From a bacterium (lineage in GTDB: Bacteria; Pseudomonadota; Gammaproteobacteria; Burkholderiales; Thiobacillaceae): a stretch of 46,526 nucleotides of DNA. Of this stretch, positions 10,137-40,999 are shown one piece after another (the stretch's first letter is position 1; each line of letters starts with the position of its first letter). The translations under genes were made by a program, and so were the position numbers. The DNA lies in NCBI GenBank assembly GCA_009772925.1, contig WOUQ01000018.1:1-46526 (forward strand). The letters run 5' to 3'. Below the pieces are notes generated by a model, which was given only the letters and a program-made list of their open reading frames with translations, was not told the origin of the DNA and did no database searches.

Positions 10137-11543
<1,407 letters not shown>

Positions 11544-11546
11544 ACG

Positions 11547-11623: not shown

Positions 11624-11635
11624 TTCTCGTCCCCC

Positions 11636-13097: not shown

Positions 13098-13116
13098 ATT
13101 CGCCCACAGCACGCCC

Positions 13117-15087: not shown

Positions 15088-16181
15088 TCCGGCGTCTGCT
15101 GCTGCGCGTGGTCGCCCATCTGGACGGGCCGCTCATGGCCATGTTGGCCCTGTTGCTGCTGGTGAGCGTCGCCACGGTGTTCAGCGCTTCCGGCGAAAAC
15201 GTCGGGCGGGTGATCGACCATCTCGTCAACATGAGTGTCGCCCTTACCGCCATGCTGCTGATTTCCCACGTACCGCCCCAGCGCCTCATGCAGTTCGCGC
15301 CGCCGGCCTATGTTCTCGGCCTCCTGCTGCTGCTGGCGGTGGCGTTGTTCGGCATTGTCGTCAACGGTTCGCGGCGCTGGCTGGATCTGGGCATCACCCG
15401 CATCCAGCCGTCCGAGCTGATGCGCCTGGCGGTGCCGATGATGCTGGCCTGGTATCTGCAATGCAAACAGGAAATTCTGAACTGGCGGCATTTCGCGGTG
15501 GCGTTCGCGCTGCTGGCGGCGCCCCTCGCCTTCATCGCCGAGCAGCCCGATCTGGGCACCACCCTGCTCATCGGCGCCTCCGGCTTCTACGTGCTGTTCC
15601 TCGGCGGCCTGTCATGGAAGGTGATCGGTGGTTTCGCCGTCGCCGCCGGGGCGGCCCTGCCGCTGGCCTGGAACACCCTGCTGCACGACTACCAGCGCCA
15701 GCGCGTGCTCACCCTCATCGACCCGGCCTCGGACCCGCTCGGGGCGGGTTATCACATCATTCAGTCCACCATCGCCGTGGGCTCCGGGGGTGTGGTGGGC
15801 AAGGGCTGGATGGCGGGCACCCAGACCCACCTGGATTTCCTGCCGGAGCGCACCACCGACTTCATCTTCGCGGTGTTCTCCGAGGAGTTCGGCCTCATCG
15901 GCAACCTGTTCCTGCTGCTGCTCTACGCCGTCATTATCTGGCGCGGCCTCTGGCTGGCGGCCAGTGCGCCCTCCCTGTTCGGCCGCCTGTTGTCGGGCGC
16001 CATCATGTTCACCTTCTTCACCTATGCCTTCGTCAACATGGGCATGGTCTCCGGCATCCTGCCGGTGGTGGGGGTGCCCCTGCCCCTGGTCAGCTACGGC
16101 GGCACCTCCATGCTGACGGTGCTCCTCGGATTCGGCATCGTGATGAGCGCAGCGAAGCATAAAAAGCTTGTAAAAACATAG
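15084..16181 (+). CDS. rodA: SEDS glycosyltransferase RodA
   Basis: RodA polymerises lipid II glycan strands and works as a pair with PBP2. The 365-residue protein has about ten membrane helices. Key SEDS segments are present: QPSELMRLAVPMMLAWYL, EQPDLGTTLLI, and the periplasmic THLDFLPERTTDFIFAVFSEEFG with its conserved acidic residues. The final PLPLVSYGGTSM loop is also present. The start codon overlaps the mrdA stop, so the two subunits should be made in step. Confidence 0.97.
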   Translation: MIRRLLLRVVAHLDGPLMAMLALLLLVSVATVFSASGENVGRVIDHLVNMSVALTAMLLISHVPPQRLMQFAPPAYVLGLLLLLAVALFGIVVNGSRRWLDLGITRIQPSELMRLAVPMMLAWYLQCKQEILNWRHFAVAFALLAAPLAFIAEQPDLGTTLLIGASGFYVLFLGGLSWKVIGGFAVAAGAALPLAWNTLLHDYQRQRVLTLIDPASDPLGAGYHIIQSTIAVGSGGVVGKGWMAGTQTHLDFLPERTTDFIFAVFSEEFGLIGNLFLLLLYAVIIWRGLWLAASAPSLFGRLLSGAIMFTFFTYAFVNMGMVSGILPVVGVPLPLVSYGGTSMLTVLLGFGIVMSAAKHKKLVKT

Positions 16182-21891: not shown

Positions 21892-22587
21892 TTACTTCGC
21901 GGGCGCCGGCGCGGCCGGCATGGCGGGCATCGCCTGCATCAGCTTCAACAGCATCGCCGGGTCGATGGCCGGCAGCATCTGCGGCGCGTTCATCATCTGT
22001 CCCCAGTTGCCGTAGGTGCGCGGATCGGCGCCGGCGCCCATCCAGTTCATGTACAGGTTGGGGTTCATCGGCGCCATCATCGTGTTCATCGCGCCGGGAC
22101 TCATGGGCGCCTGCATCCAGTTGCCGTACATGCCGGGATTCATCATCTGCATGGCCGGCGACCACATCTGCGGGTTGAGCGGAGCCTGCAGCCAGTTGCC
22201 ATACATGGCCGGGTTGGCGGCCATGCCGGCCATCTGGGTGTACATCCTGGGGTCCAAGCCCGCCCCCATCCATTTCATGGCGATGGAGGGGTCGCTGAAC
22301 TGCATGTAGTTCTGCATGCTCGCCGGATTCATCAATCCGCCCATCATGCGGACATAGGTCGCCGGGTCCATGCCCATCTGGGCGAGGGCGGCGCTGGTAT
22401 TGGGGTTTGCCATGGCATTGGCCCAGGCCATGAAGGCCTGGGGATCCTTGAACGCGGCCGTGTTCCGGGTCGGGTCCAGCATCTGTTTGGCCAGGGCATC
22501 GGCGGAGGCGGGAATGGTCGCGGGAGCGGGGTCGGCGGCAAAGGCCGGAAGGGCTGCGAGGCACAGCAGGGGGATCAGGGATTTCAT
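21892..22587 (-). CDS. Secreted methionine-rich repeat protein of unknown function
   Basis: I do not recognise a family. The 231-residue protein starts at the ATG at 22587 after AAGGAA and has a clean signal peptide (residues 1-18, ending AFA). About 37 residues (roughly 16 percent) are Met, mixed with Asn, Pro, Trp, Tyr and Ala; the mature part has no Cys or His. Repeated units include MYGNWxQAPxxP (twice), a related TYGNWGQM, and WMGAGxDPRxY (twice). Such Met clustering could bind Cu(I)/Ag(I) or scavenge oxidants, or it may be structural. It ends opposite lipB. Confidence 0.8.
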   Translation of the reverse strand: MKSLIPLLCLAALPAFAADPAPATIPASADALAKQMLDPTRNTAAFKDPQAFMAWANAMANPNTSAALAQMGMDPATYVRMMGGLMNPASMQNYMQFSDPSIAMKWMGAGLDPRMYTQMAGMAANPAMYGNWLQAPLNPQMWSPAMQMMNPGMYGNWMQAPMSPGAMNTMMAPMNPNLYMNWMGAGADPRTYGNWGQMMNAPQMLPAIDPAMLLKLMQAMPAMPAAPAPAK

Positions 22588-22910
22588 GGGGGGTTCCTTT
22601 CGGAATGCTACAGGCGGGGAGGAAGGCGCCGGAGGAGAGGGAACAAGGCGCCGGGATTGGGCCAGCGAGGAATCGATGCCGGGCCACGACATTTCGCGGC
22701 GTCCGACTTGCGCATGGTGACAGATTATCGGTGGCGGGGCATGGGTTTCGGTGACCAGGCAGCGATCCTCACGCACGCAAAGGCTGTCTACCAATCAGGT
22801 GAAGAGCCGATAGCCCTGCTGGATAGCGGGGGAAATGCTGCGGCAACGAACTTCGAGCGGTGCTGTTGAGGGCTGGGCCATGGGCCGCGTTGCCGCGTTC
22901 CACCGTCGGA
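22588..22910. other. Noncoding stretch between the Met-rich gene and dut
   Basis: These 323 bases hold no ORF I accept. On the minus strand this would be the leader and promoter of the Met-rich gene. I looked for tRNA, 4.5S RNA, 6S RNA and common riboswitch cores and recognised none. An N-terminal extension of the Met-rich ORF into this region gives a low-complexity leader before a perfectly good signal peptide, so I reject it as coding. Confidence 0.5.
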
Positions 22911-24616: not shown

Positions 24617-25375
24617 CTAACCCGCGTAGCCCAGGCGGGCCGAGATGCGCTGCGCCGCTTCCTGAACCAGGGGCACCCACTCCGGCCGGCGCCGCTCCAT
24701 AGGCGCGGACACGGACAGGCCGGCCACCGCCGCGCCGGCCGCGTCCCGCACCAGGGCGCCGATGCAGCCGACGCCCAGTTCCGCCTCTTCGTCGTCGAGG
24801 GCGTAGCCACGCGCGGTACAGGCGCCCACGTCCTCCAGCAGGGTTTTCAGGTCGGCGCGGGTGTTGGCGGTGTAGGCGGGCAGCCGGGTGCGCTTTGCGT
24901 AATCGCGGATGGCGGCGGCGCCGATCTCTCCGAGCATGAGCTTGCCCACCGCGGTGACGTGCAGGGGCGCGCGGCTGCCCACCACCTGTTCCACCCGCAT
25001 CATGCGGTTGGGGGTGAGCCGTTCGACGTAGACCACCTCGTCGCCCTGGCGCACGGTGAGGTTCACCGTCTCACCCACCTGGTCGCGCAGCCAGACCATT
25101 TCCGGTCTGGCCATGGCGCGCACGTCCTGGCCCACCCGCGCTTTGGCAGCCAGGCTGAGCAGGTGGGGGCCGAGGCGGTAGTGGCCCTGCTCGTCGCGCG
25201 CCACGAAGTCATGCTCGATGAGGGCGGCGAGGATGCGGAAGGCGGTGGAGGGGTGCAGGCCGGTTTCCGCCGCCAGCACCTTGAGGGAGGCCCCGCCGTC
25301 CTCGGCGGTCAGCGCGTCGAGCAGGGCGGTCATGCGGTCGATGACCTGGATGGAGGAGGTTTTGGGTGTGTCCAT
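24617..25375 (-). CDS. IclR-family transcriptional regulator of the divergent glycolate cluster
   Basis: A 252-residue IclR-type regulator with an N-terminal winged helix (residues 8-70, including LKVLAAETGLHPSTAFRILAALIEHDFV in two segments) and a C-terminal effector-binding domain. Some IclR-family members, including IclR and AllR of Escherichia coli, sense glyoxylate, which would suit control of a glycolate dehydrogenase operon. It is divergent from the thiamine-diphosphate enzyme gene across 90 bases containing a 17-bp palindrome touching its own start codon. The link to glyoxylate is inference. Confidence 0.9.
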   Translation of the reverse strand: MDTPKTSSIQVIDRMTALLDALTAEDGGASLKVLAAETGLHPSTAFRILAALIEHDFVARDEQGHYRLGPHLLSLAAKARVGQDVRAMARPEMVWLRDQVGETVNLTVRQGDEVVYVERLTPNRMMRVEQVVGSRAPLHVTAVGKLMLGEIGAAAIRDYAKRTRLPAYTANTRADLKTLLEDVGACTARGYALDDEEAELGVGCIGALVRDAAGAAVAGLSVSAPMERRRPEWVPLVQEAAQRISARLGYAG

Positions 25376-25410
25376 ATTTCACATTATGAAATCAAAACTG
25401 CATTGTGAAA
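25376..25410. promoter_or_regulatory. Putative IclR operator in the divergent promoter region
   Basis: A 17-bp palindrome, ATTTCACATTATGAAAT (25376-25392), lies immediately upstream of the regulator's start codon. Its right half recurs as CATTGTGAAA (25401-25410), 19 bases from CATTATGAAA (25382-25391), close to two helical turns. This AT-rich patch stands out from the GC-rich surroundings. Position and symmetry suit an IclR-family operator controlling both directions. Confidence 0.55.
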
Positions 25411-25465
25411 AGCATAGCAATTAAGTAGAGTATTTCCATCCCCATCGACCCCGTGGAGTTTCGCC

Positions 25466-27679
25466 ATGATCGCAGCCACCCAACCCGCCGAAATCGCTCC
25501 CGCCTTTTGCCAGGGCATCCAGTATTACGGAACCAGCTGGCCGGGCTTCGCGGAACACGCGGCCAGGCCCGCCATCGCCGAGGGCGGCAAGGCCATCGTC
25601 GGCGCCAATGCCCCCGGCGCCGCTTACCAGACCCTGCTGGCCGCCGACGCGCTGCGCTACCTGACCCTGCAGGTCTGCGGCGCCAAGGCTTCCGGCCACC
25701 CGGGCGGCTTCGCCTCCAGCGCCGAGGCCTACGCTTCCCTGGTCATGCTGGGCCACACCAACATCGTCACCGAAGTCGGCCACCACGCCCCCGGCTTCTA
25801 CTCCGCCATGTTCCTGGATCGCTCCCTGGAGGACATGGGTATCCACACGGTGCAGCAAATGCGCGACCGCTTCCGCGAGAAGCATGGTCTTTTGGGCCAC
25901 CTGTCCGGCGCCATCCCCGGCCTGCTCGCCCCCGCCGGCCCCCTGGGCCAGGGCCAGCATTTCGCCATGGCCGGCGCCCTGCTGCATCCCGGCGTGCTGT
26001 TCCCGGTCACCATCGGCGATGGCGGCATGGGCGAGCCCTACGTGCTGAATGCCATGATGCACTTCAACACCGCCTACCCGAAGGCGACCAACTATCTGCC
26101 GGTGCTGATCTGGAACGGCTACAGCCAGGAGCACCACGCCATGTGTTCCACCTGGAGCAACGAGCAGATGACCGCCTACTGGAAGGGGCATGGTTTCGAG
26201 AGCGTGTTCCTGGTGGACGCGAAACAGTTCGACGACCAGGATCAGGCGGGTGCCTACGTGGACAGCACCGCCTTTTCCTTTGACCGGCGCCTGGCCTTCG
26301 CGGGGGCCGTGCTGCAGGCTGCCGACCATGCCGCCAAGCAGGCCCTTTCGGGCCGCCGCGCGGTGCTCATCGTCAAGCAGTTGAAGGGTGCCGGCGTGCA
26401 CAAGCTGGGCGCCAAGGCCCACAACCTGTATCCCGCCGACACGCTCGATGCCGAGCCTATTGTCGAGGGCCTCAAGCGCCGCGCCCTGAGCCCGGAGGCC
26501 TGGCAACGGGTGCGCGACAACTTCTCCCGTGCCGGCGGTGGCCCCGCCGCGAAGACCGTGGTCACCGAACACGTGCTGGACATCGCGCCCCTGCCCGCAT
26601 TGCCCATGCGGGAGTTCGCCCAGGGTGACAAGCAGGTGCCCGCCACCGCCTTCGGCGCCCTGGTGGCGGCCGTCGGCCAGGCCGATGCCCGCTTCGTGGT
26701 GACCAACGCCGACGGCAACGAAGCCTCCGCCATGGCCAACATCAACCAGGCCCTGAAGATCCGCCACCCGGTGGAGGACGCCCTCTACAACCAGGCGCCC
26801 GGCGGCCAGGTCTACGAACCGCTCAACGAGGACGCCTGCGCCGGTTTGGCCGCCGGCCTGGCCCTGTTCGGCGCCCGCTCGGTGTGGCTGTCTTACGAGA
26901 GCTTCGCTATCAACGGCTGGCCCATCGTGCAGACCGTCACCCAGGCCATGGCGGAACTGCGCCGCAAGACCCCGTCCTTCGTCTGCATGTTCACCGCCGG
27001 CGCCCTGGAGCAGGGCCGCAACGGCTGGACCCACCAGCGCCCGGAGATCGAGAACTACTTTGCCGCCCAGATGCGCAACGGCAACGTCTATCCGCTCTTC
27101 CCCTGCGACGCCAACCAGATCCAGGCGGCCTACGCGTGGGCCCTGGGCACGCACAACAAGGGCATCGCCATCATCGCCTCCAAGAGCCCGCTGCCGGTGT
27201 ACACCACTCTGGACCAGGCCCGGCAAGGCGTGGAGCAGGGCGCCGTGACGCTGCATGAGTCCGCAGGCGGCGACAAGACCGTGGTGTTCGCGGTGACCGG
27301 CGACATGGTGCTGCTGCCGGTGTTCGAGGCCAAGGACAGGCTGGAGGCGGCGGGCCGCCGGGTGCGCATCGTTTCCGTGGCCAACCCGCGCCGGCTCTAC
27401 CGGCCCACCGACGTGGCCTGGAACACGGTGTCGGAGCCGGATGGCGGCTTCATGGCCGACGCCGACTTCGACGCCTTGTTCGACGGCGACGTGCTGATCG
27501 GCGTCACCGGAGGTCCCTCCGGCCCCCTGGAACCCGTGATGCTGCGCACCCGGGCCGCCCGGCGCGACGTGTTCGCCTGGCAGCGCGGCGAGACCACCGC
27601 CAGCGCCGGCGAGATCATGGCCTTCAACGGCATGACGGCGGAGGCGATGGCGGCACGGGCGATGGCGCTCCTTGGCTGA
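25466..27679 (+). CDS. Phosphoketolase/transketolase-like thiamine-diphosphate enzyme
   Basis: A 737-residue enzyme of the transketolase superfamily. ThDP-site features are GHPGG (His78), GHH at 105-107, GHLSG near 144-148, GPLGQG at 158-163, and the GDG...N motif from 184 to Asn217. The C-terminal half looks more like phosphoketolase: PLNEDACAG (probable catalytic Glu), LSYESF, GWTHQRPE, and PCDANQI. GPLGQG and the size are transketolase-like; PVLIWNGYS and the C-terminal half are phosphoketolase-like, so its reaction is open. Start ATG follows GTGGAG. First gene of an operon with a DUF1537 kinase and glcDEF, which suggests glyoxylate or a ketose phosphate as substrate. Alternative: xylulose-5-phosphate phosphoketolase making acetyl phosphate. 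Confidence 0.85.
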   Translation: MIAATQPAEIAPAFCQGIQYYGTSWPGFAEHAARPAIAEGGKAIVGANAPGAAYQTLLAADALRYLTLQVCGAKASGHPGGFASSAEAYASLVMLGHTNIVTEVGHHAPGFYSAMFLDRSLEDMGIHTVQQMRDRFREKHGLLGHLSGAIPGLLAPAGPLGQGQHFAMAGALLHPGVLFPVTIGDGGMGEPYVLNAMMHFNTAYPKATNYLPVLIWNGYSQEHHAMCSTWSNEQMTAYWKGHGFESVFLVDAKQFDDQDQAGAYVDSTAFSFDRRLAFAGAVLQAADHAAKQALSGRRAVLIVKQLKGAGVHKLGAKAHNLYPADTLDAEPIVEGLKRRALSPEAWQRVRDNFSRAGGGPAAKTVVTEHVLDIAPLPALPMREFAQGDKQVPATAFGALVAAVGQADARFVVTNADGNEASAMANINQALKIRHPVEDALYNQAPGGQVYEPLNEDACAGLAAGLALFGARSVWLSYESFAINGWPIVQTVTQAMAELRRKTPSFVCMFTAGALEQGRNGWTHQRPEIENYFAAQMRNGNVYPLFPCDANQIQAAYAWALGTHNKGIAIIASKSPLPVYTTLDQARQGVEQGAVTLHESAGGDKTVVFAVTGDMVLLPVFEAKDRLEAAGRRVRIVSVANPRRLYRPTDVAWNTVSEPDGGFMADADFDALFDGDVLIGVTGGPSGPLEPVMLRTRAARRDVFAWQRGETTASAGEIMAFNGMTAEAMAARAMALLG

Positions 27680-27686
27680 ACGAAGG

Positions 27687-27711
27687 GTCCCCCCTTTACT
27701 AAAGGGGGGAC
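27687..27711. repeat. Palindromic repeat between the ThDP enzyme and kinase genes
   Basis: An inverted repeat, GTCCCCCCTTT then ACT then AAAGGGGGGAC, sits in the 57-base gap inside the operon. It would form an 11-bp hairpin with a 3-base loop in the mRNA and could separate expression of the first gene from the rest. It resembles a C-run/G-run palindrome class, one of which is also found within glcF. Confidence 0.65.
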
Positions 27712-27736
27712 ACCAAGCTCCTCGAGCAGATACGAC

Positions 27737-29113
27737 ATGCCCACCACCAAGATCATCGTCCTTGACGACGACCCCACCGGTTCACAGACGGTCCATGCCT
27801 GCCTGCTGCTGACCCGCTGGGATGCGGCCACCCTGCAACAGGCCCTGCTCGATGAAGCGCCCTTGTTCTTCGTGCTCACCAACACTCGCGGCATGGACGC
27901 GGCGCGGGCCGCCGCCGTCACCGGCGAGGTCTGCGACCACCTGAAGCGGGCCCTGGCGGACCTGAAGGCGGCGGGGCACCACATCCAGCCCATCCTGGTG
28001 AGCCGTTCCGATTCCACCCTGCGCGGCCACTACCCGGTGGAGACCGACGTTATCGCGGCAAAGCTGGGGCCCTTCGACGCCCACTTCCTGGTGCCCGCCT
28101 TCTTCGAGGGCGGCCGCTTCACCCGGGACAGCGTGCACTACCTGCTGGTGGACGGGAAGCCGACGCCGGTGCATGAAACCGAGTTCGCGCGGGATTCCGT
28201 GTTCGGCTACCGCCACAGCTATTTGCCGGACTACGTCGAAGAAAAGACCCGCGGCCGGATCAAGACTGGCGAGGTGGAACGTTTCCGCCTGGAAGACGTG
28301 CGCGGTGACGTCACGGCGCGGCTGCTCGGATTGACCGGCAACCGCTGCTGCGTGGTGGACGCGGAAAACCAGGCGGACCTCAACCATTTCGCCGACCAGG
28401 TCGAGGCCGCCGCCGGGAAGGGCAAGCGCTTCCTGTTCCGTTCCGCCGCCAGCCTGCTGACCGCCCTGGCCGGGCTGCCACCGCAGCCGGTGGCGGCGGA
28501 GGCCATGCACGCCTACACCCGGGGTGGCCTACCCGGCGCGGTCATCGTCGGCTCCCACGTGCAGAAGACCACGGCGCAACTGGAACGCCTGCTGGCCGAA
28601 CCCGGTGTGGTGGCCGTGGAAGTGGAGGTGGACCGTATCCAGCCCGAGCGGGATCTACTGCTCACGGAAATCCTGGAGCGGACCACCGCCGCCCACGCCG
28701 CCGGCCTCACCCCGGTGGTGTTCACCAGTCGGGTGGAGCGCCAGTTTCCCGACCAGGCCGAGCGCCTGGCCTTCGGCGTGGCCGTCTCCGCCTTCCTCAT
28801 GGAGGTGGTGCGCGGCCTGCCGCCCACCCTGGGCTTCCTCATCAGCAAGGGCGGCATCACCTCCAACGACGTGCTGTCCGATGGCCTGGCCCTGCGCACG
28901 GCGCGGGTGCTGGGCCAGGTGCTGGCCGGCTGCTCGGTGGTGCGCTGTCCGGCCGACCATCCCCGCTTCCCGGACCTGCCGGTGGTCATCTTCCCCGGCA
29001 ACGTGGGGGACGAGGCCGCCCTGGCGACGGTGGTCCGGCGTTTTTCGGAGAAACCCGCTGCGGGCGGCTCCGCCCGGCATAATCCGCGGCATGAAGCCAG
29101 CCTTTCTCTCTGA
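27737..29113 (+). CDS. DUF1537 four-carbon sugar-acid kinase family protein
   Basis: The DUF1537 family contains ATP-dependent kinases acting on four-carbon sugar acids such as 3-oxo-tetronate and erythronate. The 458-residue protein has the N-terminal substrate domain with VLDDDPTGSQTVH (residues 8-20) and LVSRSDSTLRGHYPVE (about 91-106), and the C-terminal nucleotide domain with LISKGGITSNDVLSDGL (about 370-386). The DDDPTGSQTVH version differs from the DDFTGATD of characterised OtnK/DenD, so specificity may differ. Its last 23 bases overlap glcD, so it is probably translated together with the glycolate dehydrogenase. Confidence 0.9.
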   Translation: MPTTKIIVLDDDPTGSQTVHACLLLTRWDAATLQQALLDEAPLFFVLTNTRGMDAARAAAVTGEVCDHLKRALADLKAAGHHIQPILVSRSDSTLRGHYPVETDVIAAKLGPFDAHFLVPAFFEGGRFTRDSVHYLLVDGKPTPVHETEFARDSVFGYRHSYLPDYVEEKTRGRIKTGEVERFRLEDVRGDVTARLLGLTGNRCCVVDAENQADLNHFADQVEAAAGKGKRFLFRSAASLLTALAGLPPQPVAAEAMHAYTRGGLPGAVIVGSHVQKTTAQLERLLAEPGVVAVEVEVDRIQPERDLLLTEILERTTAAHAAGLTPVVFTSRVERQFPDQAERLAFGVAVSAFLMEVVRGLPPTLGFLISKGGITSNDVLSDGLALRTARVLGQVLAGCSVVRCPADHPRFPDLPVVIFPGNVGDEAALATVVRRFSEKPAAGGSARHNPRHEASLSL

Positions 29114-30542
29114 GCTTTCCGCCGCGCTGCCCGCCCACGCCCTGCTGGCGGAGGCGGAGGCGCTGCGCCCCTACGAGTGCGACGGACTGTCCGCCTACCG
29201 CCAGGTGCCTCTGGCCGTGTGCCTGCCGGATACCCTGGAGCAGGCCCGGGCGGTGCTGCGCGCCTGCAAGAGCCACGGCGTGCCGGTGGTGGCCCGGGGC
29301 GCCGGCACCGGGCTTTCCGGCGGCGCCCTGCCGCTAGCGGACGGGGTGATCCTGTCCCTGGCCCGCTTCAACAAGATCCTGGAAATCGACCCGGCCAACC
29401 GCCTGGCCCGGGTCCAGCCGGGCGTGCGCAACCTGGCCATCTCCGAGGCCGCCGCGCCGCACGGCCTGTATTACGCGCCGGACCCGTCCTCGCAGATTGC
29501 CTGTTCCATCGGCGGCAACGTGGCGGAGAACTCCGGCGGCGTGCATTGCCTGAAATACGGCCTCACCGTGCACAACGTCCTGGCGGTGAAGATACTGACC
29601 ATGGACGGCGAGCTCATCGAACTGGGCCTGGCCGCCCTGGACAGCCCGGGCTACGACCTGCTGGCCCTGATGAACGGCTCCGAGGGCCTGCTGGGGGTGG
29701 TGGTGGAAGTCACGGTGAAGCTGCTGGTGAAGCCGGAACGCTCCCAGGTGGTGCTGGCTGCCTTCGATTCCGTGGAGGCCGCCGGCGCGGCGGTGGCGGA
29801 CATCATCGCCGCCGGCATCCTGCCCGCCGGCCTGGAGATGATGGACAACCTGTCCATCCGCGCCGCCGAGGACTTCGTCCACGCCGGCTACCCCACCGAG
29901 GCGGCGGCGATCCTGCTGTGCGAACTGGACGGCGCCAACGCGGAAGTGTCTGAACAGATCATGGCGGTGCGGGAAGTGCTGCTGCAGGCCGGCGCCGGCG
30001 AGGTGCGCACCGCCGCCGACGAGGCCCAGCGCCTCAGGTTCTGGGCCGGACGCAAGGGCGCCTTCCCGGCGGTGGGCCGCATCAGCCCCGATTACTACTG
30101 CATGGACGGCACCATCCCGCGCAAGCACCTGGCTTTCGTGCTGCGCCGCATCGCCGAACTCTCCTCCCAATACGGCCTGCGCGTCGCCAACGTCTTCCAT
30201 GCCGGCGACGGCAACCTGCATCCCCTCATCCTGTTCGATGCCAACCAGCCCGGCGAGATGAAGAAGGCCGAGGACTTCGGCACTGACATCCTCAAGCTGT
30301 GCGTGGAAGTGGGCGGCACCGTCACCGGCGAGCACGGCGTCGGCGTGGAAAAGCTGGACGCCACCTGCAGCCAGTTCGCGCCGGAAGAACTGGTCCAGTT
30401 CCACGCCATCAAGGCCGCCTTCGACCCGGCCGGCCTGCTCAACCCCGGCAAGGCCGTGCCCACCCTGCACCGCTGCGCCGAACTGGGCCGCATGCACGTC
30501 AGCGGCGGCAAGTTGCCGTTTCCTGAACTGCCGAGGTTCTGA
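29091..30542 (+). CDS. glcD: Glycolate dehydrogenase FAD-linked subunit GlcD
   Basis: GlcD is the catalytic flavoprotein of the membrane-associated GlcDEF complex, which oxidises glycolate to glyoxylate. The 483-residue protein has the FAD/PCMH fold: VVARGAGTGLSGGALP (about residues 64-79), PDPSSQIACSIGGNVAENSGG and NVLAVKILTMDG. The C-terminal oxidase domain follows with NVFHAGDGNLHPLILFD and VTGEHGVGVEK. The ATG at 29091 lies within the end of the kinase gene. D-lactate is oxidised by relatives, but glcE and glcF next door make glycolate the best call. Confidence 0.95.
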   Translation: MKPAFLSELSAALPAHALLAEAEALRPYECDGLSAYRQVPLAVCLPDTLEQARAVLRACKSHGVPVVARGAGTGLSGGALPLADGVILSLARFNKILEIDPANRLARVQPGVRNLAISEAAAPHGLYYAPDPSSQIACSIGGNVAENSGGVHCLKYGLTVHNVLAVKILTMDGELIELGLAALDSPGYDLLALMNGSEGLLGVVVEVTVKLLVKPERSQVVLAAFDSVEAAGAAVADIIAAGILPAGLEMMDNLSIRAAEDFVHAGYPTEAAAILLCELDGANAEVSEQIMAVREVLLQAGAGEVRTAADEAQRLRFWAGRKGAFPAVGRISPDYYCMDGTIPRKHLAFVLRRIAELSSQYGLRVANVFHAGDGNLHPLILFDANQPGEMKKAEDFGTDILKLCVEVGGTVTGEHGVGVEKLDATCSQFAPEELVQFHAIKAAFDPAGLLNPGKAVPTLHRCAELGRMHVSGGKLPFPELPRF

Positions 30543-31585
30543 TGGAAGCGGAACTCATCGAGCGGGTGAAGCAGGCGGCCGAGACCGCTTCGCCCCTGTG
30601 CATCCGCGGCGGCGGCAGCAAGACGTTCTACGGACGCCATTGCGATGGGGAGTTGCTGGATGTTTCCGGCCATCGCGGCATCGTCAGCTATGAACCTTCT
30701 GAACTGGTCGTTACCGCTCGCGCCGGCACGCCCCTGGCGGAAATCGAGGCGGTGCTGGCGGAACACGGCCAGTTGCTGCCTTTCGAGCCGCCCCACTTCG
30801 GCCCCGGCGCCACCCTGGGCGGCATGGTGGCCGCCGGCCTGTCCGGCCCGCGCCGGCCCTGGGGCGGATCAGTGCGCGACGCGGTGCTGGGCGTCAGGCT
30901 CATCAACGGGCGCGGCGAGGCCTTGCGCTTCGGCGGCCAGGTCATGAAGAACGTGGCGGGCTACGACCTCTCCCGCCTGATGGCTGGCGCCCTCGGCAGC
31001 CTGGGGGTGCTGCTGGAGGTCTCCGTCAAGGTGCTGCCGCGGCCCGCCGAGGAGCGCACCCGGATGTTCGAGCTGAGCGCCGAGGCCGCCGCCGCCCGCC
31101 AACTGGAGTGGGGGCGGCTGCCCCTGTCCCTGAGCGGTACCCTGTACGAAGGCGAGCGGCTTTACGTGCGCCTGTGCGGCAGCGCCCAGGGGGTCGCGGC
31201 GGGGCTCGAAGTCCTCGGCGGCGAGGCGGTGGCCGATGCGCCCTGGCAGGCCGTGCGGGAGCAGACCCTGCCCTTCTTCCAGGGCGAGGCTCCGCTCTGG
31301 CGCATCTCCCTGCCCGCCGCCGCGCCCGCCCTGAACCTGCCCGGCGCCTGCCTGACCGAGTGGGGGGGCGCCCTGCGCTGGCTGCGCACGGACCTGCCCG
31401 CCGAGCTGGTGCGCCAGCGGGCCGCCGCCCTCGGTGGCCACGCCACCCTGTTCCGCGGCCACGACGGCCGGGGCGAGGTCTTCACGCCCTTGGCGCCGGC
31501 CCTGCTGGCACTGCATCAAAGGGTGAAGCGGGCCCTGGACCCCCAGGGCATCTTCAACCCCGGTCGGATGTACGCGGGACTCTGA
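30542..31585 (+). CDS. glcE: Glycolate dehydrogenase subunit GlcE
   Basis: GlcE is a second, smaller FAD-binding subunit required for activity. The 347-residue protein keeps the PCMH FAD fold, seen in IRGGGSKTFYG, VVTARAGTPLAEIEAVLAEH, PPHFGPGATLGGMVAAGLSGPRRP in two parts, and VMKNVAGYDLSRLMAGALG. The C-terminus NPGRMYAGL matches the family. Its ATG overlaps the glcD stop (TGATG), and its own stop overlaps the glcF start in the same way. Confidence 0.95.
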   Translation: MEAELIERVKQAAETASPLCIRGGGSKTFYGRHCDGELLDVSGHRGIVSYEPSELVVTARAGTPLAEIEAVLAEHGQLLPFEPPHFGPGATLGGMVAAGLSGPRRPWGGSVRDAVLGVRLINGRGEALRFGGQVMKNVAGYDLSRLMAGALGSLGVLLEVSVKVLPRPAEERTRMFELSAEAAAARQLEWGRLPLSLSGTLYEGERLYVRLCGSAQGVAAGLEVLGGEAVADAPWQAVREQTLPFFQGEAPLWRISLPAAAPALNLPGACLTEWGGALRWLRTDLPAELVRQRAAALGGHATLFRGHDGRGEVFTPLAPALLALHQRVKRALDPQGIFNPGRMYAGL

Positions 31586-32820
31586 TGCAGACCAAGCTGG
31601 CCGATTTCATCCGCGACACCCCCCAGGGCCGGGAGGCCGACGCCATCCTGCGTTCCTGCGTGCATTGCGGTTTTTGCAACGCCACCTGCCCCACCTATCA
31701 ATTGCTGGGCGACGAGCTGGACGGTCCGCGCGGCCGCATCTACCTGATGAAGCAGATGCTGGAGGGCAATCCGGTGTCCGGCGTGACCCGGGATCACCTG
31801 GACCGCTGCCTCACCTGCCGCAACTGCGAGACCACCTGCCCATCGGGCGTGCAGTACGGCCGTCTCGTCGATATCGGCCGGGAACTGCTGGAGAAGCTGC
31901 ATCCCCGTCCGGCCAGCCAGCAACTGCTGCGCGCCGGCCTGCGCAAGACCCTGACCAGCGGCACGGTGTTCGCCGGACTGCTCAAGCTGGGAAGGGGGGT
32001 GCGCTGGGCGCTTCCGGCCACCCTGCGGGAGCATGTTCCCGCCTCCCCCTTGATCCCCCCGCCCTCCCCCGTCAAGGGGGAGGGGGCAGTGCGTTCGATG
32101 CTGGTCCTGGAGGGCTGCGTGCAGCCGGCCCTGGCGCCGGAGACCAACGCCGCCGCCGCGCGGGTGCTGGCCCGGCTGGGCATCCGCCTGATCGCCGCGC
32201 CGGAGGCCGGTTGCTGCGGCGCCGTCGACCAGCACCTGGCGGCGGCGGAAGCGGCTCGCGCCGCCATGCGCCGCAACATCGACGCCTGGTGGCCCCACAT
32301 CGAGGCCGGCGAGGGTGGAAACATCGAGGCCATCGTCATGACCGCCAGCGGCTGCGGCAGCCAGGTGAAGGAGTACGGTCACCTGCTGCGCGACGATCCG
32401 GCCTACGCGGACAAGGCGGCGAAGGTTTCCGCACTGACCCGGGATCTGTCCGAGGTGCTGGCGGCGGAGGACCTTTCCGCCTTCAAGGCGAGCCAAGCCC
32501 GCCGCATCGCCTTCCACCCGCCTTGCAGCCTGCAACACGGCCAGAAGGTGCGCGGCGTGATCGAGGCCATGCTCACCGGCCTGGGCCACGAACTGGTGGC
32601 GGTGGACGAGGCTCACCTGTGCTGCGGCTCCGCCGGCACCTATTCCCTGTTGCAGCCGGAGATCGCCGGCCAGTTGCGGACGCGCAAGCTGTCCAACCTG
32701 CAGGCGCGCGGCCCGGAACTCATCGCCACCGCCAACATCGGCTGCCAGAACCATCTCGCCGCCGCCAGCGCGGTGCCGGTGGTGCACTGGATCACCTTGC
32801 TGGAAGCTGGTAGCCGGTAG
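31585..32820 (+). CDS. glcF: Glycolate dehydrogenase iron-sulfur subunit GlcF
   Basis: GlcF passes electrons from the flavin subunits toward quinone. The protein has 411 residues. It has two 4Fe-4S motifs, CVHCGFCNATCP (about residues 23-34) and CLTCRNCETTCP (about 75-86). Two cysteine-rich CCG domains follow, with EAGCCGAVDQHL and HLCCGSAGTYSLL. The linker before RSMLVLEGCVQPA contains the insert PASPLIPPPSPVKGEGA, encoded by an inverted repeat at 32042-32083. The last few codons and the TAG stop lie inside the left arm of a heptad hairpin. It is the last gene of the operon. Confidence 0.95.
   Translation: MQTKLADFIRDTPQGREADAILRSCVHCGFCNATCPTYQLLGDELDGPRGRIYLMKQMLEGNPVSGVTRDHLDRCLTCRNCETTCPSGVQYGRLVDIGRELLEKLHPRPASQQLLRAGLRKTLTSGTVFAGLLKLGRGVRWALPATLREHVPASPLIPPPSPVKGEGAVRSMLVLEGCVQPALAPETNAAAARVLARLGIRLIAAPEAGCCGAVDQHLAAAEAARAAMRRNIDAWWPHIEAGEGGNIEAIVMTASGCGSQVKEYGHLLRDDPAYADKAAKVSALTRDLSEVLAAEDLSAFKASQARRIAFHPPCSLQHGQKVRGVIEAMLTGLGHELVAVDEAHLCCGSAGTYSLLQPEIAGQLRTRKLSNLQARGPELIATANIGCQNHLAAASAVPVVHWITLLEAGSR
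32042..32083. repeat. Inverted repeat inserted in frame within glcF
   Basis: CCTCCCCCTTGA at 32042-32053 pairs perfectly with TCAAGGGGGAGG at 32072-32083 across an 18-base loop. The stretch is unusually C- and G-run rich compared with the gene around it. It encodes a Pro-rich linker between the iron-sulfur and CCG domains, a tolerant position. Confidence 0.65.
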
Positions 32821-34139: not shown

Positions 34140-35306
34140 TCAGGCGTAACTGCGCAGGCGCAGGGAGAACCGCGCAAGCGCCTCGATGCCGCTGGCCTCG
34201 GCCCTCTGGCACCAGTCCTGCAACTGGCGCACCAGCTGCTCGCTGCTGGCGGTGGAACGACCCCACAGAGCGGTGAGTTCCTGGCGCATCTGGTAGAGGG
34301 TCTTGAGCCGCTCGTTTTGCGCCAGTACCGAGAGCAGTTCAGCCTTTTCCAGCGGCTTGAGGGCGTTCTGGTCGAGGTTGAGCCAGCGTCTGACGCGGGC
34401 CAGATCGGGCAGCGCGCCGCGCATGTTCGACAATTCCTGCGCGTAGGCCCGCTTCATGCTGCGGCTGTAGCGGGTGAGCACGTCGTAGCGGTGGGTAATG
34501 ATGGCGTGCAGCAGGTCTGCATCGCAGAAGTGCTTGATCTCGCCCCAGCGCACCTTGGGCGCCACCTTCTTGACGCTGGCGAGGCCGAGGATTTCCAGGA
34601 TGCGGATATAGGCCCAGCCGATGTCGAATTCATACCAGCGATTGGACAGCCTGGCGGAACTGCCGTAGGCGTGGTGGTTGTTGTGCAGTTCCTCGCCGCC
34701 GATGAGGATGCCCCAGGGCAGGATGTTGGTGCTGGCGTCCTCGCAGGCGAAGTTGCGATAACCCCAGTAGTGGCCGAGGCCATTGATGACGCCGGCGGCG
34801 AAGAGGGGAATCCACAGCATCTGCACGGCCCAGATGCTAAGGCCGATGGGGCCGAACAGGACCACGTCGATGACCAGCATGAGGGCGATGCCGAGGCTGG
34901 AATGGGGGGTATAGACATGGCGCTCCAGCCAGTCGTCGGGGGTGCCGCGACCGTAGCGCTCTAGGGTATCCTGGTTTTTCGCCTCCGCCCGGTACAGTTC
35001 CGCGCCTTCCAGCAAGACCTTGCGGATGCCGAGAACCTGGGGACTGTGAGGGTCTTCCGCGGTTTCGCACTTGGCGTGGTGTTTGCGATGGATGCTGGCC
35101 CATTCCTTGGTGACGATACCGGTGGTCAGCCACAGCCAGAAACGGAAGAAGTGGCTGACCACAGGGTGCAGATCCAGGGCCCGGTGGGCCTGGGCGCGAT
35201 GCAGGTAGAGGGTGACGCCGGCGATGGTGACGTGGGTGAGGGCCAGGGCTAATAGCACATAGCCCCACCAGGGCAGTTCGATCAGGCCGTTCAGATAGGC
35301 AGGCAT
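34140..35306 (-). CDS. Acyl-lipid or acyl-CoA fatty acid desaturase
   Basis: A membrane di-iron desaturase of 388 residues, of the delta-9 stearoyl-CoA type. The three histidine boxes are HRAQAH (residues 36-41), HRKHH (about 73-77) and HNNHH (about 209-213). Four or so membrane helices lie in the first 190 residues. The C-terminal third is soluble and helical, which is longer than in minimal family members. It would introduce cis double bonds to adjust membrane fluidity. The electron donor is not evident. It ends at the shared terminator with rpmG. Confidence 0.92.
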   Translation of the reverse strand: MPAYLNGLIELPWWGYVLLALALTHVTIAGVTLYLHRAQAHRALDLHPVVSHFFRFWLWLTTGIVTKEWASIHRKHHAKCETAEDPHSPQVLGIRKVLLEGAELYRAEAKNQDTLERYGRGTPDDWLERHVYTPHSSLGIALMLVIDVVLFGPIGLSIWAVQMLWIPLFAAGVINGLGHYWGYRNFACEDASTNILPWGILIGGEELHNNHHAYGSSARLSNRWYEFDIGWAYIRILEILGLASVKKVAPKVRWGEIKHFCDADLLHAIITHRYDVLTRYSRSMKRAYAQELSNMRGALPDLARVRRWLNLDQNALKPLEKAELLSVLAQNERLKTLYQMRQELTALWGRSTASSEQLVRQLQDWCQRAEASGIEALARFSLRLRSYA

Positions 35307-37194: not shown

Positions 37195-38492
37195 GCCCGG
37201 TGTTCGAGCACGGCCGCGAAAAACCCGTCGGCGCCGTGAGTCGCCGGCTCCAGGCGGAAATAGGTGCCCATTTCCAGGGGGATTTTCTGGGCGGCGAGCA
37301 CCTCGCCGGCCGGCAACACGCGGAATTCGGGATGCGCTGCCAGGAAGGCCTCGACGATGGCCTCGTTTTCCTCGGCGAGCAGGCTGCACGTGGCGTAGAC
37401 CAGGCGGCCACCGGGCTTCACCAGGCTGGCCGCCGAGGCGAGGATGGCGGTCTGCTTGGCGTTCAGCTCCGCCACCGACTGCGGGCTCTGGCGCCATTTC
37501 AGGTCCGGGTTGCGGCGCAGGGTGCCGAGGCCCGAGCAGGGGGCGTCCACCAGCACCCGGTCGAACTTGCCGGCCAGGCGCTTGACCTTGGCATCGCGTT
37601 CGTGGGCGATGAGTAGGCCCTGTACGTTGGAGAGGCCGGAGCGGGCCAGGCGGGGCTTCAGCCTGGCCAGGCGCTTTTCCGAAACGTCGAAGGCGTACAG
37701 GCGGCCGCTGCTGTGCATCAGGGCGCCCAGCAGCAGGGTCTTGCCGCCGGCGCCGGCGCAGAAGTCGCACACCATCTCGCCCCGGCGCGGCGCCAGCAGG
37801 AGTCCCAGCAACTGACTGCCCTCGTCCTGCACTTCGAAGCTGCCGTCGAGGAAACGTCCGTGCTTTTGCAGGGCCGGCTTGCCTTGCAGGCGGATGCCCA
37901 GGGGCGAGTAGGGCGTGGGCGCGGCGGCCAGGCCTTCGCCGGCCAGTTCCGCCAGCAAAGCGTCGCGTCCTGCCTTCAGGCTGTTGACGCGCAGATCCAG
38001 CGGCGCCGGGCTGTTGAGGGCGGCCATGAGGGCGGGCAAGTGATCACCGTATTGGTCATGCAGCCGCTCATGCAGCCAGTCGGGCAGGTCCAGGCGGATC
38101 GCTTCGGAGTGCTCGTCCAGCTTCGCGCCCTTGAGGCCGCGCAGCCATTCCAGGTCGTCCTTGTCCACCAGGAATTCGAACTCGCGCAGGTTGCGGCCGC
38201 CATGGCGGGCCAGCCAGGCCAGCAGCAGGCGGCGGGGCGTGGCAGGCGCGGCCAGCGCTTGCAGGCTGCGCAGATGGCGCAAGACGCCATACACCTCCTC
38301 GGCGATGAAGGCCCGATCGCGGCCGCCCAGCTTCGGATAGGCGCGGAAGTAGGCGGACAGGCGGACGTCGGCGGGTCGATCCAGTTCCAGCACTTCCGCC
38401 AGGGCGTCGATGGCGGCGGTCAAATCCTGGCCGGGCGTTTCAACCCGGCGCTCGGCTGCGCGCCGGCCGGACACGGACTTAGGCGCCGGCAT
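37191..38492 (-). CDS. rsmB: 16S rRNA m5C967-type methyltransferase, RsmB family
   Basis: An RsmB/NOL1-like RNA (cytosine-5) methyltransferase of 433 residues. An N-terminal NusB-like helical region (about 20-150) precedes the methyltransferase domain. Motif I is VCDFCAGAGGKTLLLGAL, motif IV is VDAPCSGLGTLRRNPD with the product-release cysteine, and motif VI is VYATCSLLAEENE with the catalytic cysteine. The ATG at 38492 overlaps the end of cbbR by 14 bases. It may modify another site than C967, which cannot be told from sequence. Confidence 0.9.
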   Translation of the reverse strand: MPAPKSVSGRRAAERRVETPGQDLTAAIDALAEVLELDRPADVRLSAYFRAYPKLGGRDRAFIAEEVYGVLRHLRSLQALAAPATPRRLLLAWLARHGGRNLREFEFLVDKDDLEWLRGLKGAKLDEHSEAIRLDLPDWLHERLHDQYGDHLPALMAALNSPAPLDLRVNSLKAGRDALLAELAGEGLAAAPTPYSPLGIRLQGKPALQKHGRFLDGSFEVQDEGSQLLGLLLAPRRGEMVCDFCAGAGGKTLLLGALMHSSGRLYAFDVSEKRLARLKPRLARSGLSNVQGLLIAHERDAKVKRLAGKFDRVLVDAPCSGLGTLRRNPDLKWRQSPQSVAELNAKQTAILASAASLVKPGGRLVYATCSLLAEENEAIVEAFLAAHPEFRVLPAGEVLAAQKIPLEMGTYFRLEPATHGADGFFAAVLEHRA

Positions 38493-39387
38493 GGTTCTGT
38501 GTGCCGCGATCGGCCAGCAGAAAGTCGAGGAATGCCCGCGCCACCGTGGAAATCTGGCGTCCGGCGGGATAGACCGCATACCAGTGCCGCTGGATCGGAA
38601 AGCCCTCGGCATCGAGCACGGCGAACTGACCGGGTTGATGCAGCACCAGGGTATGGCCGGACAAAGCGGACAGGCCCAGGCCGGAAAGGATGGCCTGCTT
38701 GATCGCCTCGTTGCTGCCCAGCTCCAGGCGCGGCCGAATCTCCAGGCCGCGTCCCAGGAACAGGCGCTCGATGGCCTTGCGCGTGCCGGACCCGGCCTCG
38801 CGCATGATCCACGGCTCCTGGGCGAGGCGTTCCAGGGTGATGCGTTTGGCTCCGGCCAGCGGATGATCCGGCGGCGCCAGCACGACAATGGGATTGTCCA
38901 TGATGGGCATGGCGACCACATCGACCTCATCGGGTGGCGTGCCGAGCAGGTAGAGGTCGTCCAGATTGTCGGTCATGCTCGCCAGCACCTGCTCCTTGTT
39001 GGTGACGCGCAGGGATACCTCGATGCCCGGATGCTGCTTGCTGAACGCCCCCAGCAAACGGGGCGCGAAATAGGAGGCGGTGGTGATGGCCATCAGCCTC
39101 AGGCGTCCCTTGCGCAGGCCCTGGCGTTCGGCCACCGACATGGCATAGCGGTCGAGGATGGCGAAGATGTCGCGGCTGGCCTGGGCCAGTTCGCGCCCGT
39201 CCTCGGTGAGCAGCACCTTCTTGCCTACCTGCTCGACCAGCGCGGTGCCCACCGCGTCGCACAGCTTCTTCATCTGCATGGACACCGTCGGCTGCGTCAG
39301 ATGCAGTTCCTCGGCGGCGCGGGTGAAGCTGCCAAGTCGGGCGATCGCCTCGAAGATCTCAAGTTGTCTGAACGTGCTGTGCCGCAT
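38479..39387 (-). CDS. cbbR: LysR-type regulator CbbR
   Basis: CbbR activates Calvin-cycle operons in response to metabolites such as RuBP or NADPH. The 302-residue protein opens with the CbbR-like winged helix-turn-helix STFRQLEIFEAIARLGSFTR and EELHLTQPTVSMQMKKL. A LysR substrate-binding domain follows. It is divergent from cbbL across 190 bases, the classic cbbR arrangement, and that context decides the name. Its 3' end overlaps rsmB, so the regulator is transcribed at the head of a five-gene minus-strand run. Confidence 0.93.
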   Translation of the reverse strand: MRHSTFRQLEIFEAIARLGSFTRAAEELHLTQPTVSMQMKKLCDAVGTALVEQVGKKVLLTEDGRELAQASRDIFAILDRYAMSVAERQGLRKGRLRLMAITTASYFAPRLLGAFSKQHPGIEVSLRVTNKEQVLASMTDNLDDLYLLGTPPDEVDVVAMPIMDNPIVVLAPPDHPLAGAKRITLERLAQEPWIMREAGSGTRKAIERLFLGRGLEIRPRLELGSNEAIKQAILSGLGLSALSGHTLVLHQPGQFAVLDAEGFPIQRHWYAVYPAGRQISTVARAFLDFLLADRGTQNHAGA

Positions 39388-39577
39388 GGTTTATGCTTGC
39401 CGTCTCGGCCGCCTCGCGGTGGCGAGGGAGAGGGTAACAGAATAGATTTAAATCTATCACGTCAATAGAAAATCGTGACTGTTATTTATGATTTGATGTG
39501 CGCATCATCCGCAGACCTCCAAATCGACAAATCGGTCGATGAGGTTCAAAGCAATCCCGAGATTAAGGAGCTTACTC
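39388..39577. promoter_or_regulatory. cbbR-cbbL divergent control region with putative CbbR sites
   Basis: A perfect 16-bp palindrome, ATAGATTTAAATCTAT, lies at 39442-39457, close to cbbR. A second dyad, GTCA at 39461-39464 and TGAC at 39476-39479, follows. An AT-rich stretch continues to about 39495. LysR-type regulators bind AT-rich dyads of this type. The cbbL start is preceded by AAGGAG at 39565-39570. No clear -10/-35 pair was identified, as expected for an activator-dependent promoter. Confidence 0.6.
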
Positions 39578-40999
39578 ATGGCTGTGAAGACGTATAGCGC
39601 TGGCGTGAAGGAATACCGCCACACTTACTGGATGCCGGACTACACCCCGCTGGACACCGACCTCCTGGCTTGCTTCAAGATTACCCCCCAGCCTGGCGTC
39701 GACCGTGAAGAGGCCGCCGCCGCCGTGTGTGCGGAGTCTTCCACCGGCACCTGGACCACGGTGTGGACCGACCTCTTGACCGACATGGATTACTACAAGG
39801 GTCGCGCCTATCGCATCGAGGACGTGCCCGGCGACGATACCGCCTTCTACGCTTTCATCGCCTACCCGATCGACCTGTTCGAAGAGGGCTCCGTGGTGAA
39901 CGTGTTCACCTCCCTGGTCGGCAACGTGTTCGGCTTCAAGGCGGTGCGCGCCCTGCGCCTGGAAGACATCCGCTTCCCCATCGCCTACGTCAAGACCTGC
40001 GGCGGCCCGCCCCTGGGCATCCAGGTCGAGCGCGACATCATGAACAAGTACGGCCGTCCCATGCTGGGCTGCACCATCAAGCCCAAGCTGGGTCTGTCCG
40101 CCAAGAACTACGGCCGCGCCGTGTACGAGTGCCTGCGCGGCGGCCTGGACTTCACCAAGGACGACGAGAACGTCAACAGCCAGCCCTTCATGCGTTGGCG
40201 TCAGCGTTTCGACTTCGTCATGGAAGCCATCCACAAGGCCGAAGCCGAGACCGGCGAGCGCAAGGGCCACTACCTGAACGTCACCGCCCCGACTCCGGAA
40301 GAGATGTACAAGCGTGCCGAGTACGCCAAGGAAATCGGCGCACCCATCATCATGCACGACTACATCACAGGCGGTTTCTGCGCCAACACGGGTCTGGCCA
40401 ACTGGTGTCGTGACAACGGCATCCTCCTGCACCTGCACCGCGCCATGCACGCCGTGGTCGACCGCAACCCGCACCACGGCATCCACTTCCGCGTCCTGAC
40501 CAAGATCGCCCGTCTGTCCGGCGGCGACCACCTGCACACCGGTACCGTCGTCGGCAAGCTGGAAGGCGACCGCGCCTCCACCCTGGGCTGGATCGACCTG
40601 CTGCGCGAATCCTTCGTGCCGGAAGACCGCAGCCGCGGCATCTTCTTCGACCAGGACTGGGGTTCCATGCCCGGCGCCTTCGCCGTCGCTTCCGGCGGCA
40701 TCCACGTCTGGCACATGCCCGCCCTGGTCACCATCTTCGGTGACGACTCCGTTCTGCAGTTCGGTGGCGGCACGCTGGGCCACCCCTGGGGCAACGCCGC
40801 CGGCGCCGCCGCCAACCGCGTCGCGCTGGAAGCCTGCGTGCAGGCCCGCAACGAAGGCCGCCAGCTCGAGAAGGAAGGCAAGGAAATCCTCAGCGCCGCT
40901 GCCTCCCACTCGCCCGAACTCAAGATCGCCATGGAAACCTGGAAGGAAATCAAGTTCGAGTTCGACACCGTCGACAAGCTGGATATCGCCAACAAATGA
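39578..40999 (+). CDS. cbbL: Form IA RuBisCO large subunit
   Basis: Catalyses carboxylation (and oxygenation) of ribulose 1,5-bisphosphate. The 473-residue protein has the catalytic lysine segment [10 protein letters not shown], the carbamylated lysine in [22 protein letters not shown] with the catalytic histidine, and loop 6 in [12 protein letters not shown]. The N-terminus [21 protein letters not shown] is that of form IA, carboxysome-associated enzymes. The ATG at 39578 has AAGGAG 7 bases upstream; the upstream ATG at 39539 lacks one. First gene of the alpha-carboxysome operon. Confidence 0.99.

Follow-up and report, generated by a model that had tools for sequence, protein, structure and literature searches.

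A DUF1537 kinase and a phosphoketolase-like enzyme encoded with glycolate oxidase: a candidate glyoxylate-salvage operon of RuBisCO-bearing bacteria

The operon considered here is located on contig WOUQ01000018.1 (C31) of a 3.22-Mb Thiobacillaceae assembly (GCA_009772925.1). The whole contig, 46526 bases in length, was analysed and is referred to as the window. The operon comprises, in this order, the genes of a thiamine diphosphate (ThDP)-dependent enzyme of 737 aa (25466–27679, + strand; Pfam XFP, XFP_N and Transket_pyr), a DUF1537 kinase of 458 aa (27737–29113, +; Pfam SBD_N and NBD_C, 193.8 and 128.8 bits), and the FAD subunit GlcD (29091–30542, +), the FAD-binding subunit GlcE (30542–31585, +) and the Fe–S subunit GlcF (31585–32820, +) of glycolate oxidase. 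A regulator gene of the IclR family (24617–25375, − strand; Pfam IclR_C, 132.7 bits, and HTH_IclR) is placed divergently, and a conserved palindrome, ATTTCACATTATGAAAT (25376–25392), regarded as a putative operator, lies between it and the ThDP gene. Gene calls and domain scans agreed with the original prediction in the content and order of this unit and in the overlap of its last four genes (23 bases for DUF1537/glcD, 1 base each for glcD/glcE and glcE/glcF); the ThDP and DUF1537 genes are separated by 57 bases, and the ATG at 29091 was chosen by us as the start of GlcD. The lack of a malate synthase, glyoxylate carboligase (GCL) or hydroxypyruvate reductase beside glcDEF was also borne out, none being recognised among the scanned genes of the window, which are not all of its open reading frames. 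Glycolate oxidase was assigned on NCBIfam matches: GlcE (PRK11282, 520 bits, cut-off 284) and GlcF (PRK11274, 636 bits, cut-off 333) passed, and GlcD fell just under both of its cut-offs (PRK11230, 848.6 bits, cut-off 897; 548 versus 568 bits for the other), yet these were by far its best matches. The arrangement of these genes is more than chance, and the genomic evidence gives good support to a function in glyoxylate salvage.

The ThDP gene was searched in two even draws, which are not random samples, of 369 genomes from the class and 117 from the cyanobacterial phylum. It was found in 33 of the class genomes, distributed over 24 families, at 64–76% identity apart from the source genome itself. 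A RuBisCO-family match was obtained in 32 of these 33 carriers versus 155 of the 336 genomes lacking the gene (Fisher 2e-9, ignoring kinship), whereby 31 of the 32 matches score like form I (G318 is weaker) and the 155 include weak, possibly RuBisCO-like proteins. In the source genome the gene of the RuBisCO large subunit (39539–40999, +; PRK04208, 806 bits, cut-off 438) is situated on the same contig, 6.7 kb downstream of the operon, and is the sole PF00016 match of the assembly. In 20 fetched stretches, the divergent IclR gene was present in 20/20, DUF1537 downstream in 19/20 and glcD in 11/20. Of the relatives returned by the public-genome scan, which number at least 517, the best 80 were used, a set that leans towards near relatives; it included Thiobacillus, Gallionella, Sideroxydans, Nitrotoga, Sulfuriferula, Halothiobacillus and Mariprofundus as well as six cyanobacterial records. 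Among the 74 non-cyanobacterial loci of this set, and counting those with room on the stretch, DUF1537 followed the ThDP gene within 2 kb in 69/69, IclR was divergent within 600 bases in 61/65, and glcD was located downstream in the same orientation, at most 5.5 kb away, in 25/41; at least 2 of the 16 loci without downstream glcD (L063 and L078) carry glcDEF on the other side. Two pairs from the same genome are contained among the 100 relative loci and among the 83 intergenic regions used below. The gene order is therefore neither limited to one or two close relatives nor free of RuBisCO, the two outcomes that had been named as speaking against the proposal.

The strongest sign that both enzymes work together is that they co-occur even where they are not adjacent, as in the cyanobacteria. 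No DUF1537 gene was present in the examined stretch of the six cyanobacterial ThDP loci, and a 66–68% identical one was found elsewhere in the genome in 4/4 tested cyanobacterial carriers. Throughout the 117 genomes of the phylum, which include possibly non-photosynthetic ones, 43 contained both genes, none the ThDP gene only, 6 DUF1537 only and 68 neither (Fisher 7e-26, ignoring kinship). Where the two genes share a contig, the closest pair noticed is separated by about 21 kb (G437). Of the six genomes with DUF1537 alone, five have matches of 38–49% identity, which could represent different proteins of the same family. As a separate observation, the DUF1537 protein of one genome of this phylum (G402, C1:4246310–4247638) is 72% identical to that of the window, with a longer open frame, and possibly points to a transfer; the other DUF1537 matches in the phylum are at most 69% identical to the window's.

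Enzymes of glyoxylate metabolism were compared between the 33 class carriers and 47 genomes with RuBisCO but without the ThDP gene, which were hand-picked from the 155 (at least 97% complete, RuBisCO E-value 1e-131 or better). GlcE over cut-off was present in 32/33 carriers versus 32/47 comparison genomes, and glycolate oxidase thus goes with the ThDP–DUF1537 module. GCL over cut-off was found in 0/33 versus 2/47, and malate synthase in 8/33 versus 11/47 (lacking in 25 and 36, respectively). Complementarity of the module with GCL or malate synthase was consequently rejected, as carriers and non-carriers did not differ. Tartronate-semialdehyde reductase (TSR) exceeded its cut-off in 4/33 versus 6/47, with nothing above 100 bits in 10 carriers, and the DUF4147 glycerate kinase was detected in 23/33 (one a fragment) versus 25/47. 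In the source genome itself, GlcDEF is accompanied by a glycerate kinase of the DUF4147 type and by a TSR-like protein that scores 312 bits against a cut-off of 341; the best GCL score there, 335 bits, falls short of the cut-off of 711, and malate synthase (PF01274) gave no match. Among the enzymes compared, only the ThDP enzyme and DUF1537 are constant across the carriers. The rarity of TSR and the missing glycerate kinase in 10/33 would suit a route that ends at dihydroxyacetone phosphate (DHAP) without a reductase.

The ThDP protein is weakly phosphoketolase-like, with Pfam scores of 46.9 bits for XFP (cut-off 22) and 35.8 bits for XFP_N (cut-off 23.7). Its best NCBIfam phosphoketolase score was 104.3 bits versus a cut-off of 777, and the transketolase cut-offs were missed as well (47 versus 488 and 43 versus 682 bits), so that the earlier label of a phosphoketolase/transketolase-like enzyme is fair, although all of these matches are weak. 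A profile built from 19 sequences of the family scored 125 bits against XFP structures, compared with no more than 39 bits against transketolases. A structure model (mean pLDDT 77.7, active-site loops of low confidence) was likewise nearest to XFP, the first match having a TM score of 0.71 by query at 19% identity, and 16–19% identity was seen over the XFP matches. The residues H97, H142, E479, Y501, Q546, N549, H553 and K605 (Bifidobacterium breve numbering) were taken by us to be the catalytic residues of XFP; H142 and H553 are named in the PDB titles of XFP structure matches. By hand count on the profile alignment they correspond to H106, H145, E455, Y477, Q516, N519, H523 and K573 of the window protein, all eight of which are invariant across the proteobacterial, Mariprofundus and cyanobacterial members compared (112 ThDP sequences, 108 distinct). 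Of the two XFP residues that presumably bind the sugar phosphate, R442 has no arginine counterpart, only one of the 112 sequences containing an arginine at positions 420–425, where the alignment may be off by a few residues, and in place of H548 an arginine (R518) stands in 112/112. The protein belongs to a separate family beside XFP phosphoketolase, with the catalytic residues kept and the phosphate site changed. It should accordingly form the usual ketol–ThDP intermediate, whereas the site for the other substrate would be altered; the invariant R518 could hold a carboxylate.

The fold of the DUF1537 protein matched 5dmh, 4xgj, 1yzy and 3dqq, and at an E-value of 0.001 or better only DUF1537-type structures were returned; the best PDB score of the family profile was 45 bits, to 4xfm. 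Across 97 DUF1537 sequences (91 distinct), every position of the motif SRSDSTLRGHYPxE other than x shows conservation of 98% or more. The protein is probably an acid-sugar kinase and is proposed to act at C4 of 3-oxo-tetronate or a related C4 acid. In one locus (L056, Candidatus Nitrotoga sp. M5), two tandem DUF1537 copies follow the ThDP gene (12290–13621 and about 14062–15411), the second of which has one in-frame TGA.

The palindrome ATTTCACATTATGAAAT was found with at least 8 of 10 arm positions in 76 of 83 IclR–ThDP intergenic regions, these being the regions of 30–500 bases with both genes located. In the window it overlaps a promoter-like −10 element of iclR. The operator pattern TTTCRYAWTRYGAAA has one exact match in the source genome, at this operon. 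An exact search with the degenerate pattern in the 33 class carriers returned 24 sites in 19 genomes, 23 of which are at this operon, versus 2 sites for the reversed control pattern. No wider IclR regulon was found, the sole exact site off the cluster (G263:C4) lying by no recognised target (L187, by eye). As the sites are nearly all at this operon, the IclR protein looks like a local regulator, apparently dedicated to the operon, which it would control from the one operator; glyoxylate, suggested in the original prediction, is a possible effector. The best NCBIfam match of the protein was the glyoxylate-sensing regulator BhcR, whose equivalog cut-off was missed (172.6 versus 350 bits), and in structure alignments the cysteine region of its effector site is common to IclR proteins of other effectors.

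Other genes near the pair are variable. In 5 of 100 relative loci (L044, L067, L081, L091 and L104), DUF1537 is directly followed by a gene of the F_bP_aldolase family, coding for about 280–300 aa, and such genes occur on the other side of the cluster in two loci. Of these proteins, the four that were scanned (L067, L081, L091 and L104) did not reach any of the aldolase equivalog cut-offs; L081 (217 versus 216 bits), and likewise L047, just passed that of the broad cbbA subfamily, and the assignments in L044 and L068 were made by similarity only. The F_bP_aldolase-family protein may be a candidate decarboxylase acting after the kinase. TSR-like genes are located near the cluster in L067, L091, L105, L114, L116, L118, L124 and L127, in L091 and L118 right after glcF; those of L105 and L067 exceeded the TIGR01505 cut-off, that of L116 was below it, and the other five were assigned by similarity. 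A gene resembling a hydroxyacid dehydrogenase was recognised by eye in L105, as were TRAP-transporter-like genes after DUF1537 in L035, L037, L067, L070, L090 and L104, and a malate synthase gene directly downstream of DUF1537 in L032/G241 (10394–11992; PF01274 match G241:C1). These neighbours would fit glyoxylate or C4-acid metabolism and seem to single out no one route. Glutathione-S-transferase-like genes (by eye) stand between glcE and glcF in L095 (16551–17210), L043 (13356–14015) and L045 (14303–14962).

From this context we infer the following route, including its substrates, its products and the decarboxylation step. Glycolate derived from the 2-phosphoglycolate of RuBisCO would be oxidised to glyoxylate by GlcDEF. 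The ThDP enzyme, acting as a ketol transferase, would move HOCH2-CO- from a Calvin-cycle ketose phosphate, or from another ketol donor, onto glyoxylate and thereby give 3-oxo-tetronate (HOCH2-CO-CHOH-COOH). Phosphorylation at C4 by the DUF1537 kinase would prevent its loss to free dihydroxyacetone, and the phosphorylated beta-keto acid would release CO2, spontaneously or by an F_bP_aldolase-type enzyme, to give DHAP. Ketose phosphate, glyoxylate and ATP would thus be converted to aldose phosphate, DHAP and CO2 in a redox-neutral manner, with no NAD(P)H or ammonia required and one of the two glyoxylate carbons recovered. Such a route would explain why only two extra enzymes are constant and why they track RuBisCO and glycolate oxidase, and it would need no reductase, transaminase or separate end enzyme. 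Ketol transfer with 3-oxo-tetronate and DHAP as products appears to be the most economical reading of the sequences, and the probability that the operon is dedicated to glyoxylate salvage by this chemistry in Calvin-cycle bacteria is put at about 0.5. The operon is probably a new variant of phosphoglycolate salvage; that it represents a natural salvage route absent from the literature searched, spread over iron-, sulfur- and nitrite-oxidising proteobacteria, Mariprofundus and many cyanobacteria, is put forward tentatively, as a possibility slightly short of even odds.

Several points weigh against the ketol-transfer route. A Synechocystis mutant blocked in the three known glyoxylate branches is said to need high CO2, which would speak against an efficient fourth branch there if that strain carries the two genes. 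The retained phosphoketolase residues Q516 and N519 could mean acetyl-phosphate chemistry instead of ketol transfer. No assigned model fits the kinase, for which NCBIfam returned D-threonate kinase alone (63.3 versus a cut-off of 450 bits). No decarboxylase is encoded in the window operon, and the eight loci with TSR-like genes near the cluster would agree with a variant that forms glycerate. Since GCL and malate synthase are as scarce in genomes lacking the module as in carriers, the absence of these two enzymes is not evidence specific to it. There are also exceptions to the associations: G033 (86% complete, 6% contaminated) has the ThDP gene without a RuBisCO match, L036 has it without DUF1537 beside it, and G480 is a true exception with DUF1537 (63%) but no ThDP gene. 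No exact operator match was present in 14 of the 33 class carriers, and in 15 glcE regions off the cluster in these genomes, some of them cut by contig ends, all operator scores stayed under the 13.8 bits of the lowest-scoring site at the cluster, with two weak matches at 12.4 and 11.5 bits. The regulator therefore does not tie those glc genes to the ThDP–DUF1537 pair. In PMC7895386, phosphoketolase is not enriched in Calvin-cycle genomes and glycolate oxidase is rare and depleted there, a result that speaks against glycolate oxidation being generally tied to RuBisCO; the ThDP family of the window would have gone uncounted in that work if it carried no phosphoketolase EC numbers.

The pair could also belong to a glycerate-type salvage that uses unrelated enzymes, in which the ThDP enzyme would be a new glyoxylate carboligase yielding tartronate semialdehyde or hydroxypyruvate, TSR or a hydroxypyruvate reductase would follow, and DUF1537 would be the glycerate kinase forming 3-phosphoglycerate. 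The TSR-like genes, two of them after glcF, the dehydrogenase-like gene of L105 and the lack of GCL over cut-off in all 33 carriers would agree with it. We consider it unlikely, if the least so among the rivals, because neither TSR (4/33, with 10 genomes showing nothing above 100 bits) nor glycerate kinase is constant; moreover, 23/33 carriers already possess a classical glycerate kinase, one of these being a fragment. The ThDP family is of phosphoketolase type, whose known relatives, to our knowledge, use ketols and not two 2-oxo acids. That the enzyme is simply a phosphoketolase, making acetyl phosphate that could feed malate synthase together with glyoxylate while DUF1537 serves another step, is suggested by the closeness to XFP in profile and fold, the eight conserved catalytic residues, the malate synthase gene of L032/G241 and the name pket2 given to the probable cyanobacterial counterpart (PMC7744508, as far as that text was available). 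But malate synthase is absent from 25/33 carriers, the near-perfect tie to DUF1537 would be left unexplained, the counterpart of R442 is missing and that of H548 is arginine in 112/112, the NCBIfam phosphoketolase cut-offs are missed widely, and the portion of PMC7744508 consulted states that the activity of pket2 still needs verification. We regard this explanation as improbable, slightly more so than glycerate-type salvage.

The direction of the pathway could also be the reverse, with a four-carbon acid sugar, imported or arising from damage, being degraded or repaired, the ThDP enzyme splitting the keto acid, and glycolate or glyoxylate as product. DUF1537 kinases act on C4 acid sugars according to the sections of PMC12540250 at hand, and TRAP-transporter-like genes follow DUF1537 in several loci; the tie to RuBisCO (32/33), the presence in cyanobacteria, Nitrotoga, Gallionella and Mariprofundus and the fact that no dehydrogenase, isomerase or transporter is a regular neighbour of the pair in the examined loci stand against it, and its chances are judged as low as those of a phosphoketolase. 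A role in 4-phosphoerythronate repair was rejected, no supporting gene being found. Inheritance of a phosphoketolase relative and a DUF1537 kinase side by side without a shared pathway would gain from the fact that the co-occurrence counts ignore kinship. It is nevertheless very improbable: the two genes are adjacent in 69/69 loci with room, yet co-occur without adjacency in 43/43 cyanobacterial-phylum carriers, and share an operator.

Further features were recorded in the window. A CbbR-like LysR gene, below the CbbR cut-off, is divergent from the RuBisCO gene (38479–39387), and a carboxysome shell carbonic anhydrase gene is located downstream of RuBisCO near the contig end (44231–45718). The C-terminal tail of a DesA-family fatty acid desaturase (34140–35306, −) is of a kind also present in ISL3 transposases (NCBIfam DesA/ISL3 alpha bundle tail). 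The open reading frame at 21892–22794 (−) codes for a signal-peptide-like stretch and, by eye, for many near-repeats rich in Met, Asn, Pro and Trp (MYGNWMQAP-like), possibly an unusual repeat protein.

If the ketol-transfer route is true, a two-enzyme path to DHAP, free of reductant and ammonia, would fill part of the gap in phosphoglycolate recycling in bacteria without GCL and malate synthase, and half of the glyoxylate carbon would be returned to the Calvin cycle for one ATP. It would also give a function to the probable second phosphoketolase of cyanobacteria and possibly a photorespiratory bypass made of natural enzymes. In the literature searched, which was without preprints and most subscription journals, no paper joining tetronate with photorespiration was found, nor was a ketol-transfer route of glyoxylate, including in the accessible part of PMC11316390.

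Among known systems, the phosphoglycolate salvage of Cupriavidus necator, described as glycerate pathway plus malate cycle in the part of PMC7486775 consulted, is similar in that a chemolithoautotroph there obtains glyoxylate by the action of GlcDEF on glycolate from RuBisCO. It differs in the use of GCL/TSR or malate synthase. The source genome has neither a GCL over cut-off nor a malate synthase, and its operon encodes a DUF1537 kinase together with a ThDP enzyme from a different family. The same part of PMC7486775 reports malate synthase in 0% of RuBisCO-bearing Acidithiobacillales, Halothiobacillales and Nitrosococcales and in 2% of cyanobacteria. With XFP phosphoketolases (Bifidobacterium, cyanobacterial Xpk) the ThDP enzyme shares fold and catalytic residues, but it misses the NCBIfam cut-offs, has changed phosphate-binding residues and is linked to DUF1537 and often to glycolate oxidase.

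The cyanobacterial genes sll0529 and alr1850 are, by description and not by sequence, likely counterparts of the ThDP family. In the excerpts seen they are called pket2 or putative transketolase (PMC7744508, PMC7281370, PMC4915528), sll0529 is given as Pkt2 (PMC11257934), and a figure legend on NdhR-controlled low-CO2 genes names the counterpart as a putative transketolase of unknown function (PMC7281370). They are treated there as second phosphoketolase or transketolase, and no assay and no link to DUF1537 or to glyoxylate as substrate was seen in these excerpts, although inhibition of pket2 by glyoxylate is speculated on in PMC7744508. A double deletion of xfp1 (slr0453) and xfp2 (sll0529) in Synechocystis grew like the wild type or slightly faster with glucose and CO2, according to the passages of PMC9034593 consulted, which says little on phosphoglycolate salvage at low CO2.

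The catabolism of L-threonate and D-erythronate with OtnK and OtnC, reportedly described in Zhang 2016, is comparable in its DUF1537 kinase, in DHAP as the proposed end product and in the F_bP_aldolase-family gene beside the kinase in 5 relatives. As given in the sections of PMC12540250 at hand, 2-OtnK and the F_bP_aldolase protein 2-OtnC convert 2-oxo-L-threonate to DHAP, and 3-OtnK/3-OtnC make DHAP from 3-oxo-L-threonate. In contrast to these systems, no threonate dehydrogenase or OtnI was recognised in the window unit, the kinase falls outside the assigned models, and the C4 acid would be built from glyoxylate and not imported.

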